The notes under the pieces: model-generated | Told to the model about the DNA's origin: nothing | Database searches by the model: none | The model's input: only the letters and a program-made list of their open reading frames with translations | From: Bifidobacterium breve | GTDB taxonomy: Bacteria > Actinomycetota > Actinomycetes > Nanopelagicales > Nanopelagicaceae | Direction: 5' to 3' | NCBI GenBank assembly: GCA_945876865.1 | Contig: CAMCPZ010000010.1 | Coordinates: forward strand, 1 to 35,070 | Length of the DNA: 35,070 bases | Part shown: positions 2,247 to 26,305 of the stretch, piece by piece | Numbering within the stretch: the stretch's first letter is position 1 | Layout: the number at the start of each line of letters is the position of its first letter | Translations under genes and position numbers: made by a program

Positions 2247-3908
2247 ATGCCGGCAGCCAGTGTTGATCAGATACTTGAAGCGTTAGATCCAGAGCAGCGA
2301 GAAGTTGTAACAGCGGTCCGTGGCCCGGTCTGCGTAATTGCTGGCGCCGGAACTGGAAAGACTCGTGTTATTACACATCGGATTGCCTATGCAATTGCAA
2401 TTGGCGTTACAGATTCAAGTAAAACCCTGGCTCTAACATTCACTGCACGCGCAGCAGGCGAAATGCGCGCAAGATTACGTGGTCTTGGAATTCCTAATGC
2501 AAGTGCTCGAACATTTCACTCAGCTGCAATCAAACAATTAATGTATTTCTGGCCCTACGCCTTTGGTGGCTCGTTCCCTTCACTGCTCACCATGAAATCA
2601 GGGGCGATTGCTGAAGCCCTGAATCGAACTGATTCTTCGCTAACTCCGCAGACCTCAACTCTGCGAGAGATAGCAAGTGAGATTGAATGGGCCAAGGTCT
2701 TAGAGATTTCACCAGATGAATATGTTGAATCAGCACTTGGGGCGGGGCGAACACTTCGGATTCCAAATAATAAACCCGACAAAGCAAATTTCGAAGATAT
2801 CTCAAAGGTTTATCAGGCATATGAAACTTTAAAACAACAAGAGCGCGCAATTGATTTTGAAGATGTGCTCCTATTGACAGTCGGAATGCTGGAAGAGGAT
2901 CGCGATGTTCGAGAGCGAGTTCGCGATCAATATCGCTACTTCACTGTCGATGAATACCAGGATGTTTCACCATTACAACAACGTTTGTTAAATTTGTGGC
3001 TTGGTAATCGTGATGATATCTGTGTTGTTGGAGATGCGGCTCAGACCATTTACTCATTTGCTGGTGCAAGTTCATCCTTCCTACTCGGCTTCACAAAGCG
3101 CTTTCCAAGTGCTCAGGTAATTCGACTTTCTCGCGGCTATCGCTCGACCCCAGAAATTATCGGAACCGCTAATGCGATTTTGCGCCAAGGCGGAATGATC
3201 GGCGAGCATGGCCACGAACTAGCTTCGATGAATGAACATGGCGCTAAACCTGAAATTGCCAAGTTCGATTCAAGCGCTGGTGAAGCAAATTACATCGCCA
3301 AGAAAATTTCAGAACTTCGCACCAAAGCTGGCGAACATGTTGAAGTTGCAATCTTGACCAGAACAAATTCCCAATTAGATATCTTCGAGCGCGAACTTCG
3401 GAGCGCCGGAATTGAATCCCAGATAAAAACCTCAGAAAAGTTCTTCGAGCGAGTCGATGTAAGAGATGCAATGCGAGTAATTAGAAGTGCATCCGTTCTG
3501 CCTACCGAGGGCGGAAATTGGTATGACGACTTGATTGCAGTTCTGCGCCCATTTGGCGACACCGATTATGTTCATGCATTTCTAGCGCTTGCGAAATCCA
3601 TGCAAGAAGATGCAATGACCGCAGGAAACGCAATCACTTTGCGCACCTATCTGCGCGAGCTCGAAGATCGGGCCGAACAGAACAATCCGCCATCCTTGCC
3701 TGGAGTAGTTCTCTCAACGTTGCATGCCGCCAAAGGTTTGGAATGGGACCATGTTTTCTTGGCTGGAGTCAGCGATGGAATCTTGCCGATGGGCAACGAT
3801 ATTGAAGAGGAGCGCAGACTCTTCTATGTCGGCCTTACTCGGGCGAAGAGCGAATTACACCTCTCATATTCTGGGGCCCCGAGCCCATTTCTGAGCGGCA
3901 TCCTTTAA
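2247..3908 (+). CDS. Superfamily I DNA helicase UvrD2-like, short form
   Basis: A 553-residue SF1A 3'-5' DNA helicase. Motifs in order: Q-motif LDPEQREVV (13-21), Walker A AGAGTGKT (32-39), motif Ia LALTFTARAAGEMRARL, motif II VDEYQD, motif III GDAAQTIYSFAGA, motif IV RLSRGYRS, motif V TLHAAKGLEWDHVFL, motif VI RLFYVGLTRAK. The chain ends about 20 residues after motif VI. Mycobacterial UvrD2 is about 700 residues with a C-terminal HRDC domain, so that tail appears to be missing. The ATG follows the nudC stop directly. The position between nudC and whiB7 supports UvrD2 rather than UvrD1/PcrA. The role is probably DNA repair or replication; the effect of the missing tail is unknown. Confidence 0.88.
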   Translation: MPAASVDQILEALDPEQREVVTAVRGPVCVIAGAGTGKTRVITHRIAYAIAIGVTDSSKTLALTFTARAAGEMRARLRGLGIPNASARTFHSAAIKQLMYFWPYAFGGSFPSLLTMKSGAIAEALNRTDSSLTPQTSTLREIASEIEWAKVLEISPDEYVESALGAGRTLRIPNNKPDKANFEDISKVYQAYETLKQQERAIDFEDVLLLTVGMLEEDRDVRERVRDQYRYFTVDEYQDVSPLQQRLLNLWLGNRDDICVVGDAAQTIYSFAGASSSFLLGFTKRFPSAQVIRLSRGYRSTPEIIGTANAILRQGGMIGEHGHELASMNEHGAKPEIAKFDSSAGEANYIAKKISELRTKAGEHVEVAILTRTNSQLDIFERELRSAGIESQIKTSEKFFERVDVRDAMRVIRSASVLPTEGGNWYDDLIAVLRPFGDTDYVHAFLALAKSMQEDAMTAGNAITLRTYLRELEDRAEQNNPPSLPGVVLSTLHAAKGLEWDHVFLAGVSDGILPMGNDIEEERRLFYVGLTRAKSELHLSYSGAPSPFLSGIL

Positions 3909-3918
3909 TTTAATTAAC

Positions 3919-3948
3919 TTGCGCCATCGATGTGGCGTGGGTTACCCT
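3919..3948 (+). promoter_or_regulatory. Candidate whiB7 promoter
   Basis: TTGCGC at 3919-3924 (-35-like) and TACCCT at 3943-3948 (-10-like) are 18 bp apart. An A/T-only stretch at about 3904-3917 lies just upstream of the -35. WhiB7-dependent promoters are known to carry an AT-rich element just before the -35, which the WhiB7 AT-hook reads, so autoregulation is plausible. Transcription would begin near 3955, almost on the ATG of the leader ORF. The hexamers match the consensus only partly. Confidence 0.4.
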
Positions 3949-3955
3949 TCTCCAC

Positions 3956-4117
3956 ATGTCACAACAACGCTCATTAATTGCAGGCGCAGGCCGCATCTCG
4001 GCTGCGTCTTTTGTTGTGGCATCAGCTAAAAACAAGCCATCAACACATAAGCATTTTGCCTTCGCTGCTACCTATGCAGCCTATGCAAAGCGCGGATCCT
4101 GGAGCTCTATCGGCTAA
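3956..4117 (+). CDS. Putative whiB7 leader peptide (uORF)
   Basis: A 53-codon ORF from ATG 3956 to TAA 4117, preceding a strong terminator and whiB7. It resembles no protein I know and has no Shine-Dalgarno sequence. The candidate promoter would start transcripts at about 3955, making it leaderless, a common mode in actinobacteria. Its last codons (4091-4100) contain the bases that can pair with the 3' arm of the terminator, and its stop codon sits in the loop of a 7-bp hairpin (4107-4124). This arrangement suggests that translation of the ORF, not its product, matters. The in-frame extension back to GTG 3932 would lie inside the promoter and is unlikely. An internal hairpin at 3985-4006 followed by TCTTTT could act as an early pause or termination site. 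Confidence 0.5.
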   Translation: MSQQRSLIAGAGRISAASFVVASAKNKPSTHKHFAFAATYAAYAKRGSWSSIG

Positions 4118-4124
4118 CCGATAG
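4107..4124 (+). promoter_or_regulatory. Hairpin across the leader ORF stop codon
   Basis: A perfect inverted repeat, CTATCGG / CCGATAG, with a CTAA loop. The leader ORF stop TAA (4115-4117) lies at the loop and 3' base of the loop, so a terminating ribosome would melt this hairpin. It may insulate or pace the switch between antiterminator and terminator. Confidence 0.5.
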
Positions 4125-4136
4125 TCAAAAGCCCCA

Positions 4137-4179
4137 GGGCCGCAAATCCTTTCAAAGGATTCGCGGCCCTTTTGCTTTT
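4137..4179 (+). terminator. Rho-independent terminator/attenuator in the whiB7 leader
   Basis: The arms GGGCCGCAAATCCTTT (4137-4152) and AAAGGATTCGCGGCCC (4154-4169) pair over 16 positions with a single mismatch (tip pairs open as a loop), and TTTTGCTTTT follows at 4170-4179. It lies 20 nt after the leader ORF stop and about 145 nt before whiB7, so full termination would silence whiB7. Bases 4156-4165 of the 3' arm can instead pair with 4091-4100 (ten pairs, one of them G-U), giving a competing antiterminator. Confidence 0.85.
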
Positions 4180-4229
4180 CTACCAGCCGCGAGAACCCAA
4201 GAAATTATCCAACCGGATAACTACCCCAA

Positions 4230-4274
4230 CCCAACCAACCCAACCAACCCAACCAACCTAACCAACCTAACCAA
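4230..4274 (+). repeat. Five 9-bp repeats (CCCAACCAA type) in the whiB7 leader
   Basis: Three copies of CCCAACCAA are followed by two of CCTAACCAA, without interruption. The tract has no G on the plus strand and cannot form stable structure as RNA. It lies between the terminator and the whiB7 ribosome-binding site. Confidence 0.9.
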
Positions 4275-4324
4275 CCAAGAGAAAGCCAAACTCGACTAAA
4301 CGAGAAAAGACGGAGGTGAGAACA

Positions 4325-4651
4325 GTGACTGTTCTCTTCAGCGAACTATTAGTACCGGGATGGGCCGAAGGCCCAGATGCAAAGATTGGTGTTACTGCTT
4401 TTGCAGATAGCGCAACGAAGCTTCCCTGCCATCAGGCAGATCCAGAGACCTTCTTCGCAGAAAGCCAAGCCGAAATTTCGTATGCCAAGGCGCTCTGTGG
4501 CGAATGTCCAATGCGAGCTAAGTGCCTAGAAGGCGCGCTATCTCGTGCTGAGCCATGTGGAATTTGGGGCGGTGAGTTGTTTGAAGATGGCAAGGTAATT
4601 CAAGCAAAGCGAAGCGCCGGCCGACCACGGCTTATTCAACTAGCTAGCTAA
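4325..4651 (+). CDS. whiB7: WhiB7-type iron-sulfur transcription regulator
   Basis: A 108-residue Wbl protein. Four cysteines (C35, C58-x2-C61, C67) would bind a [4Fe-4S] cluster, the GIWGG turn is at 79-83, and the C-terminal AT-hook GRPR is at 99-102. The AT-hook separates WhiB7 from other WhiB proteins. In mycobacteria and streptomycetes WhiB7 partners the primary sigma factor to switch on intrinsic antibiotic resistance when translation is inhibited. I chose GTG 4325 because GGAGG at 4312-4316 is spaced correctly for it; the in-frame GTG at 4316 overlaps that site. The location after uvrD2 matches mycobacterial whiB7. Regulation is probably through the upstream leader terminator and WhiB7 itself. 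Confidence 0.88.
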   Translation: MTVLFSELLVPGWAEGPDAKIGVTAFADSATKLPCHQADPETFFAESQAEISYAKALCGECPMRAKCLEGALSRAEPCGIWGGELFEDGKVIQAKRSAGRPRLIQLAS

Positions 4652-5884
4652 TCAGATAAGACGCTGGCAACCACAAGCAGGATGTGGTTGCCAGTATCTA
4701 TAACCGATTCCTCTGTCAGCTAAAGAACTTTGGTTAGCTAAAGAACTTTGGTTAGCTAAAGAACCCGAATCAATAGGATCGAATAAATTAATGGCCAAGG
4801 TGGCGCCGATAAGTTTGGCAGCATGATTTTGCGAAGTGCTATTTTCTGAAGTGCAAAATTGAATTACATGCGTGGCAATCAATCCGGTTAAAAGTGCAAC
4901 CTGGGCTGATGGAAGTTCAAGACCCTTTCCTTCACCGTTATCTAGCGCAGCTAACATCTCAAAAGAATTGTGATGTGGAAATTGTTCAGAGCGCCAAAGG
5001 CTCAAGCAGTTTAGGCAAGGTGTTTTTCCAGGAATAACAATTGGACCTAGAACAATTGTGTTTTCAATTAGATTTGAAATCGGCAAGTGCGCAATTGCTT
5101 CACTTAGCCAAAGCTGCATAGTTTCTTGGGGGATCGATTCGGTAGAGATAATGAAGTCTGGCTTTAGTGGAAACTCCAGCTTTTCGGCTGGAAACAATTG
5201 CGAATTCCGCGCCAAGTCAGCAAGAACCAGGGCTTTCCGAAGCCCAACATCACTCCCGCGGATTGCAAGCCCGCAGACTTCGGATGGCTCAATATGAACT
5301 GCCGAATCGTGGCCAGCCGAACCGACTCGATCAGTTAATTTGATTAAAGCAAAACCACTGGCCTGTAAAACTGCAAAGAGTGAAAGTGCTAATCGATTTC
5401 GGCCATAAATGATAATCGAGAAATTACGACGTAGGCCAATTAGCGCTTCGGCATCTTTCTCGATCCCAATATCTGGATGCCAGCTATATAGATTCTCTTC
5501 GGCGCGCATTCGATTAGTAGAGTTAACGAAGTTAGCCGCTAACAGCTCTTTCTTCGGTGATAATTTTGGGACTGGTGATGTTCGAAATTCAATCAACCGC
5601 TCGTTGCTCAACACCCGCAAAACTTCAGAGGTTAAATCTGTAGATTTCGCACCAGTTTCTATTGCCGAGATGATGCTTCCCAGGGTGCGACTTCCGTCAA
5701 ATAAACAGAGAAGTTCAAAAGCAATTTCAAATTTCAGTTCAATGCCACGGTGACTAAATCCAATGTAGATGTCACTACAGTCTTGACCCGAGACCTTGAA
5801 GAAATTGACCCCTGGTTTCAAAGCGGGATACTTGGCTAAATCAAACTTGGCTAAATCAAACTTGGTTATGGATCGAGGGCTCAT
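4652..5884 (-). CDS. RRE / E1-like (ThiF-type, TOMM leader-binding) protein
   Basis: A 410-residue protein. Residues about 20-100 resemble the winged-helix peptide-recognition fold (RRE, PqqD-like). The rest resembles the E1/ThiF-like domain of azoline (TOMM) cyclodehydratase partners, with the typical GPIVIPGKTPCLNCL stretch (C290-x2-C293) and a terminal PHPACGC (C404, C406) that together would hold zinc. No clear ATP-binding GxGxxG is kept; YGRNRLAL near 160 is the nearest. No YcaO cyclodehydratase or precursor peptide is visible nearby. Homologues at this position in other actinobacteria are, to my knowledge, uncharacterised. Two short in-frame tandem duplications sit near the N-terminus (LAKFD) and C-terminus (SSLANQ). 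The stop directly abuts the convergent whiB7 stop. Confidence 0.7.
   Translation of the reverse strand: MSPRSITKFDLAKFDLAKYPALKPGVNFFKVSGQDCSDIYIGFSHRGIELKFEIAFELLCLFDGSRTLGSIISAIETGAKSTDLTSEVLRVLSNERLIEFRTSPVPKLSPKKELLAANFVNSTNRMRAEENLYSWHPDIGIEKDAEALIGLRRNFSIIIYGRNRLALSLFAVLQASGFALIKLTDRVGSAGHDSAVHIEPSEVCGLAIRGSDVGLRKALVLADLARNSQLFPAEKLEFPLKPDFIISTESIPQETMQLWLSEAIAHLPISNLIENTIVLGPIVIPGKTPCLNCLSLWRSEQFPHHNSFEMLAALDNGEGKGLELPSAQVALLTGLIATHVIQFCTSENSTSQNHAAKLIGATLAINLFDPIDSGSLANQSSLANQSSLADRGIGYRYWQPHPACGCQRLI
4715..4767 (-). repeat. 18-bp tandem repeat, three copies, in frame
   Basis: Copies at 4715-4732, 4733-4750 and 4751-4767 share GCTAAAGAAC; the last diverges at its end. Translated on the minus strand they give the repeated LANQSS near the C-terminus of the RRE/E1-like protein. 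Confidence 0.95.
5831..5870 (-). repeat. 15-bp tandem repeat at the start of the RRE/E1-like gene
   Basis: CTTGGCTAAATCAAA occurs at 5831-5845 and 5846-5860, with a partial third copy from 5861. It is in frame and encodes the duplicated KFDLA near the N-terminus. Confidence 0.95.
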
Positions 5885-7076: not shown

Positions 7077-7200
7077 GCCCCTGCAGAATGGTTGTATTGC
7101 CTTAGCCATCTGAAAATATCTTATTGGTGATGAAATTGCGGCCCAGAATTCGAAATTGGAATTTATCTTGCTATTAAACAGGCAAAACCCTCAACTATTA

Positions 7201-7260
7201 CTTTAAATTACTTGAAATTACTTGAAATTTTTGAAATTACTTGAAATTACTTGAAATTAA
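7201..7260 (+). repeat. Six 10-bp repeats (CTTGAAATTA type), helically phased
   Basis: Six decamers in exact 10-bp register, each holding TGAAATT or close to it (the first is TTAAATTA). Phased A/T tracts of this kind are expected to bend DNA, and the tract is easily melted. The rest of the 7007-7399 gap holds the DnaA-like cluster and an 8-bp inverted repeat; I see no gene in it. Confidence 0.9.
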
Positions 7261-25602: not shown

Positions 25603-26118
25603 GTGAATACTAATTTCGCTCACGGGGCCATCGAGTTTTCCAACAACGGAGTTTTAGATTCCCTTACCGGAGCTCCTGCTCCTAAAACCTTCTTTGATAA
25701 CTTAGCCAGAGAAATTTCACAATCCCGGCGCAGAACTAAACCGATTGCGATTGTGACAATTAAGCTTTTGCCTAAAGATTACGATGCAAAAAAGATTAAG
25801 AAATTAACCACTCAACAAGCCAGCCTGAGAGATCTAGAATTTGAAAAACTCTTGGCGCTAGTGAGCAACAAGATAAAGTCGAACATGAGAGGTGGCGATT
25901 TCTACTCACGTGTAGCAGAGAATGGTTTCTGGCTCTGTTTACAAGGAGATTTAAGCCAAGCAATTAGTGCCGCAAAAAGATTTGAAGACATTCTCTCTGA
26001 GAAATTCAAGACTTCAAATGTTAAAGCGCATGTTGAATTCTCTACCAGTGAATGGAATAGCGATCTGGATACAAATAAGTGGATTGCTGAGATAGATCGC
26101 CAATACTTCGCGAGCTAA
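25603..26118 (+). CDS. Degenerate GGDEF-like domain protein
   Basis: A 171-residue protein. DSLTGAPAPKTFFDNLAREI near residues 19-38 matches the entry helix of GGDEF domains (DxLTGLxNRxxF). The later GGDFYSRVAENGFWLCL occupies the position of RxGDxxxRxGGDEFxxLL, but the catalytic GG(D/E)EF is replaced by AENGF. It should therefore lack diguanylate cyclase activity and may bind a nucleotide or act in protein contacts. It precedes the Tad pilus genes on the same strand, where many actinobacteria have other Tad regulators. GTG 25603 has only a weak ribosome site, and an upstream start is possible. Its stop lies in a 32-bp repeat. Confidence 0.6.
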   Translation: MNTNFAHGAIEFSNNGVLDSLTGAPAPKTFFDNLAREISQSRRRTKPIAIVTIKLLPKDYDAKKIKKLTTQQASLRDLEFEKLLALVSNKIKSNMRGGDFYSRVAENGFWLCLQGDLSQAISAAKRFEDILSEKFKTSNVKAHVEFSTSEWNSDLDTNKWIAEIDRQYFAS

Positions 26119-26198
26119 CGCTCCAGACAAATCTTTACGCCGCGAGCTAACGCTCCAGACAAATCTTTACGCCGCGAGCTAACGCTCTAGGCAAATCT
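26109..26198 (+). repeat. 32-bp tandem repeat, nearly three copies, spanning a stop codon
   Basis: Copies at 26109-26140 and 26141-26172 are identical; the third (from 26173) diverges after about 16 bp. The shared core is CGCGAGCTAACGCTC. The first copy contains the last two codons and TAA of the GGDEF-like gene. The rest of the gap to tadA (26199-26305) holds TTGACG at 26238-26243, a possible -35 with no convincing -10. Confidence 0.95.
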
Positions 26199-26305
26199 TT
26201 TCCTCCCCATGACTTAAATGCAGAAAGTAATCGCAAATTGACGCCTGGATTAGTATCTAAAGAATTTACCTACTTCTGTTAATAAGAAAAAGGTAAGTAT
26301 TTTCA

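Follow-up and report, generated by a model that had tools for sequence, protein, structure and literature searches.

Putative uORF-dependent attenuator upstream of whiB7 in a Nanopelagicales actinobacterium and its predicted antiterminator

The leader upstream of whiB7 in the 35,070-nucleotide stretch of DNA analysed here (the window) very probably represents the form that the actinobacterial whiB7/wblC uORF attenuator takes in Nanopelagicales, with an antiterminator formed by the uORF tail and the 5' arm of the terminator. Ribosome-controlled attenuation of whiB7, as proposed in the original prediction, is strongly supported by the conservation of the leader, but the switch was placed there on the 3' arm of the terminator, whereas the tail appears to pair with the 5' arm, which is transcribed earlier and covaries with it.

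Genomic setting and conservation of the leader

The window is part of a 1.25 Mb assembly of 83 contigs (about 83% complete) from a Nanopelagicales (freshwater acI-type) actinobacterium, and the relatives used for comparison are Nanopelagicales MAGs. A gene for a UvrD-type helicase, the leader, whiB7 and a convergent gene follow each other in this order (Table 1). Promoter, uORF, terminator and antiterminator as well as their conservation were derived from the sequence and its comparison with relatives; the 53-codon ORF, the terminator and whiB7 lie where they had been predicted. The whiB7 product contains a WhiB domain (Pfam PF02467, E 5e-16) and a GRPR AT-hook-like tail, while none of the NCBIfam models matched it; its assignment to the WhiB7 subfamily is a prediction that rests on PF02467, the GRPR tail and the leader. 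The Rfam scan of the window yielded no family over the whiB7 leader, its sole match being a tRNA elsewhere in the window. The 410-aa ORF convergent to whiB7 is without a Pfam match and carries 18-bp and 15-bp tandem repeats near both ends (4718-4764 and 5830-5865), with both unit lengths divisible by three. Other near-perfect tandem arrays in the window are located at 7197-7259 and 26109-26200 (10-bp x 6.4 and 32-bp x 2.9).

Table 1. Coordinates of the whiB7 leader elements and neighbouring genes in the window
Feature	Position	Strand	Remarks
UvrD-type helicase gene	2247-3908	+	same strand as whiB7, upstream of leader
AT-rich box TTAATTAA	3910-3917	+	just 5' of -35; probable WhiB7 (AT-hook) autoregulation site, predicted binding
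Promoter	3919-3948	+	-35 TTGCGC 3919-3924; 18-nt spacer; -10 TACCCT 3943-3948
Structured 5' domain	3956-4022	+	predicted pairing of AUG with UUGUUGUGGCAU downstream, 12-bp stem
Regulatory uORF	3956-4117	+	53 codons; end ...GSWSSIG*; stop TAA 4115-4117
Antiterminator, 5' strand GCGGAUCCUGGAGC	4092-4105	+	within last uORF codons
Stop-codon hairpin	4107-4124	+	4107-4113 with 4118-4124; enclosed by antiterminator
Antiterminator, 3' strand	4131-4143	+	overlaps terminator 5' arm
Intrinsic terminator	4136-4179	+	stem 4136-4170; U-rich tract to 4179
Spacer	4180-4308	+	G-poor, A/C-rich, largely unstructured; CCAACCCAA tandem repeat at 4226-4278
whiB7	4312-4651	+	Shine-Dalgarno GGAGG 4312-4316; start GTG 4325; stop ends 4651
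Gene convergent to whiB7	4652-5884	-	directly after whiB7

The search for leaders covered 105 whiB7 loci, including some duplicates, and yielded 76 distinct leaders with sufficient upstream sequence. A promoter resembling AATTAATT..TTGCRY..TTACCCTT, a uORF and a terminator were found in all 76 readable Nanopelagicales leaders; at one locus missed by the uORF filter (L071), uORF and terminator are both present. Relatives that keep whiB7 and lack the terminator, which would have spoken against the original prediction, were not encountered among these leaders. A second, class-level search returned 28 more loci, all with promoter, uORF and terminator, although species already in the set of 76 may be included in this number. 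With other actinobacterial families, uORF and terminator were detected at 18 out of 20 loci, where a long ORF ends 17-30 nt before a strong terminator. A WhiB paralogue of the same genome (L002) served as control: the 560 nt upstream of it contain neither such a promoter nor a uORF or terminator of this kind. Another paralogue (L001) did not align with the WhiB7 query and was left out. The predicted strength of the terminator was borne out by folding: the region 4130-4180 has an energy of -27.2 kcal/mol (z -5.3), reached by none of 200 shuffles, and the whole leader is more stable than shuffled sequence (z -6.7).

The AT-rich box is present in nearly all of the approximately 76 related leaders, mostly as AATTAATT, and relatives keep the promoter pattern TTGCRY..TTACCCTT. 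Judged by its motifs, the promoter region (3910-3948) is of the WhiB7 type; a generic sigma-70 scan did not call the promoter at 3919-3948. In the source genome (83% complete assembly), the single match to the full motif TTAATTNNNTTGC..TANNNT lies ahead of whiB7, while a relaxed WhiB7-box search for a regulon in this genome gave matches at control level. The presence of the strict motif solely at whiB7 hints at a very small regulon, or at looser sites elsewhere.

At 23 loci of the window's genus, start, frame and stop of the uORF are kept, with lengths between 50 and 73 codons. Given that the upstream helicase gene has the same orientation and ends at 3908, the hairpin might instead be the terminator of this gene, with whiB7 transcribed from its own downstream promoter and the ORF being incidental. 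This is highly improbable, since a conserved promoter sits between helicase and whiB7, the uORF keeps its frame, start and stop despite length changes, the antiterminator covaries (see below), and no TANNNT -10-like hexamer is found in 4180-4329. The spacer downstream of the terminator (4180-4308) shows no significant structure (z -1.3 compared to shuffles), which disfavours translational control by this C/A-rich segment. The post-terminator region is G-poor in related leaders, too.

Pairing partner of the uORF tail

The arm of the terminator paired by the uORF tail was assessed by comparing the duplex energy of each tail with its own terminator arm to that with swapped partners, using permutations; the leaders compared are related sequences and thus not independent. 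For the 5' arm, the own partners of 75 Nanopelagicales leaders reached -19.4 kcal/mol compared to -16.3 kcal/mol with swapped ones, and none of 5000 permutations was as good. The 18 loci of other families gave -23.6 and -19.4 kcal/mol, respectively (0 of 20000 permutations as good), most of them again pairing the uORF tail with the terminator 5' arm. In the 27-sequence alignment, the 5'-arm register of the window is paired in 76% of the cells and has a covariation score of 0.132; neither value was reached in any of 500 shuffles, and every slid control was lower. In many other genera the register is shifted by one (8-11 of 11 pairs), e.g. CUUGG/CCAAG instead of CCUGG/CCAGG. The shifted register alone had no excess over shuffles on the mixed alignment, as expected if only some of the sequences use it. 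The arms of the antiterminator hardly vary among members of the window's genus and thus show little covariation of their own there. Relatives have equivalent stop-codon hairpins of different sequence.

According to the original prediction, the uORF tail (4091-4100) pairs with the terminator 3' arm (4156-4165) and so opens the terminator. The ten pairs, including one G-U, are indeed present in the window, with a duplex energy of -18.5 kcal/mol (-22.9 kcal/mol for the 5'-arm pairing), and in the 27-sequence alignment their covariation score is above that of most shuffles (5 out of 500 as high). Nevertheless, this mechanism is very unlikely. Own and swapped partners are equal for the 3' arm (-11.2 and -11.4 kcal/mol in Nanopelagicales), with 77% of permutations as good there and 98% in the class-wide set; pairs changed on both sides do not exceed shuffles, and a higher score is obtained at slide +3. 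Allowing any register, nine of the ten pairs are found in two relatives and six to eight in the other 24 of the 27 representative leaders, so that the match decays instead of covarying in relatives that keep whiB7. In folds with ribosome masking, as in all others, the probability of the 3'-arm pairing was about 0 (0.0). Moreover, the 3' arm is made after pairing with the 5' arm can already be complete. The conserved antiterminator is therefore probably formed by the tail (4092-4105) and the terminator 5' arm (4131-4143) around the stop-codon hairpin, and the comparative data show covariation of these arms in Nanopelagicales as well as in other families.

Translation of the uORF and predicted switching

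Outside the last 13 codons of the uORF, pS is 0.30 and pN 0.17 in the genus; therefore, constraint on the encoded peptide is weak. This suits a uORF that may count by being translated more than by its peptide. The last codons are the most conserved ones, and a W near the end is also common class-wide. Both observations would fit a nascent-chain arrest peptide, in which the peptide itself is the sensor by means of a ...WSSIG* stalling motif, rather than the general position of the ribosome. Such a role is hardly to be expected, since the conservation of these codons is explained by the antiterminator arm that their nucleotides form, and the rest of the peptide evolves fast; furthermore, a ribosome stalled at the tail codons would keep the switch off, not on.

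The amino acid composition of the uORFs was compared to that of the window proteins as background. Alanine accounts for 25% of the residues within the genus and for 21% among other genera, whereas window proteins have 9.7%; Asp and Glu together make up about 1-2% (12% in the background) and Leu 2-3% (10%). Nanopelagicales uORF peptides are also very poor in Ile, despite fast sequence divergence. GCN codons make up 22% in the uORF reading frame compared to 5-7% in its other frames; in the adjoining uvrD gene, the values are 11, 7 and 6%, frame by frame.

The uORF had been predicted to start at the first base of the transcript. In the window, its ATG is located 7 nt past the -10 hexamer TACCCT, and this spacing fits a leaderless start; spacings of 6-9 nt are found in 39 of the 76 leaders, the window included. 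The uORF of the window is thus probably leaderless. In the other 37 leaders the ATG is located farther downstream, mostly with a 5' hairpin followed by a Shine-Dalgarno sequence. Several Shine-Dalgarno-led leaders (L076, L086, L091, L096, L104, L106 and others) have a 5'-terminal hairpin in the first approximately 35 nt after the -10, before the uORF. The loop of Shine-Dalgarno-led leaders is often C[AU]UGGCG, and in those of sister genera this loop recurs while the stem varies (mean z -2.0). On the WhiB7 tree, which is short and partly unresolved, at least two switches between leaderless and Shine-Dalgarno-led initiation are required (four by parsimony). The initiation mode of the uORF thus seems to change inside one order; this and the alanine-rich composition with almost no Asp or Glu were less expected. 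Leaderless 5' ends are structured as well (mean z -2.6 in the genus): the 5' domain of the window (3956-4022) has a z of -3.6 and an AUG open probability of 0.08, and the AUG is predicted to be closed (open probability 0.13 or less) in 12 of 23 genus members. The domain varies between species.

Folding of the leader was computed with an assumed ribosome footprint masked from -17 to +14 of the A-site. When folded in order of synthesis without a ribosome, the antiterminator has a probability of 0.995 at 4145-4155. For ribosome positions as far as codon 40, it stays above 0.99 at 4145 (0.997 for codon 40) and then drops to 0.83 at codon 42 and 0.35 at codon 44. At codons 46-54 the antiterminator is at about 0 and the terminator at 0.97 in the full leader. 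At equilibrium, the full leader favours the terminator (0.94) over the antiterminator (0.16) even without a ribosome; therefore, timing matters, as it does with other attenuators. According to these models, the antiterminator would have to form first and persist.

We infer the following course of events. Transcription would begin at the promoter with the WhiB7-type upstream box. A ribosome finishing the uORF would cover its tail and stop codon (about 4098-4129 with the stop codon in the A site) and block the antiterminator, so that the hairpin 4136-4170 could form and transcription would end at about 4175-4180. If uORF translation fails or stalls before about codon 42, which might be caused by a ribosome drug, amino-acid shortage or failed initiation, 4092-4105 would pair with 4131-4143 once the latter is made, enclosing the stop-codon hairpin. 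With the terminator 5' arm occupied, RNA polymerase would read through, and the WhiB7 made would activate its own promoter.

A more specific proposal is that the switch of Nanopelagicales works mainly as an amino-acid gauge. In this reading, the uORF, in which alanine reaches roughly double its usual share and Asp, Glu, Leu and Ile are scarce, is translated from a leaderless start in certain lineages and, in the remaining ones, from a Shine-Dalgarno start that follows a 5' hairpin, and whiB7 alone is under the full promoter motif (83% complete genome). We consider this rather unlikely. Mycobacterial whiB7 is said, in work of Poulton from 2024, to respond to the amino-acid composition of its uORF and to alanine starvation. 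A link of whiB7 to alanine starvation is also cited in PMC10727445.

Relation to known attenuators

The wblC/whiB7 attenuator, consisting of a uORF and a terminator with an antiterminator formed from overlapping uORF and terminator sequences, is described in PMC10727445, PMC11550727 and PMC4128351. The window contains a WhiB7-family gene, a uORF (pN below pS; translation predicted), a Rho-independent terminator and an overlapping antiterminator; as to an autoregulated promoter, the AT-rich box upstream of the -35 is conserved and is a candidate binding site. It thus holds an intact, ordinary member of this attenuator family, whose mechanism class is already published. The antiterminator given here is a corrected one for which covariation argues, and for the lineage our literature search found no description of this attenuator. 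The whiB7 attenuator is therefore intact in a streamlined, abundant freshwater bacterial group, and model actinobacteria could serve to test the antiterminator derived from comparison and covariation. Since leaderless and Shine-Dalgarno-led starts have replaced each other naturally while the rest of the switch stayed constant, these leaders lend themselves to comparing how initiation mode affects drug and starvation sensing.

The Streptomyces wblC uORF attenuator (Lee, Lee and Roe 2022, Mol Microbiol 117:179; as cited in PMC11550727, PMC10727445 and PMC13393426) shares the WhiB7-family gene, the translated uORF, the Rho-independent terminator, the antiterminator from uORF and terminator sequences and the autoregulated promoter (here predicted). 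In contrast, the leader described here belongs to a low-GC freshwater lineage, its uORF is probably leaderless, and the uORF sequence is dissimilar except near the end. In the mycobacterial whiB7 leader (Dinan 2014, PMC4128351; Burian and Thompson 2018; PMC13236596), a uORF and a conserved stem-loop with a U-tract likewise precede whiB7, which is reported to be induced when ribosomes stall in the uORF. The uORFs of M. marinum and M. bovis follow a Shine-Dalgarno motif at a distance of approximately 10 nt (PMC4128351), whereas the ATG described here follows the -10 box by 7 nt. A leaderless small ORF at the transcript 5' end (here probable) is shared with the mycobacterial leaderless regulatory uORFs (PMC4633059), and an amino-acid-biased peptide, with the ribosome position choosing between hairpins, with the ilvB1 attenuator of M. 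tuberculosis (PMC13236596). Both control other genes and share no sequence with the leader described here, in which the bias is towards alanine and not cysteine or branched-chain amino acids.
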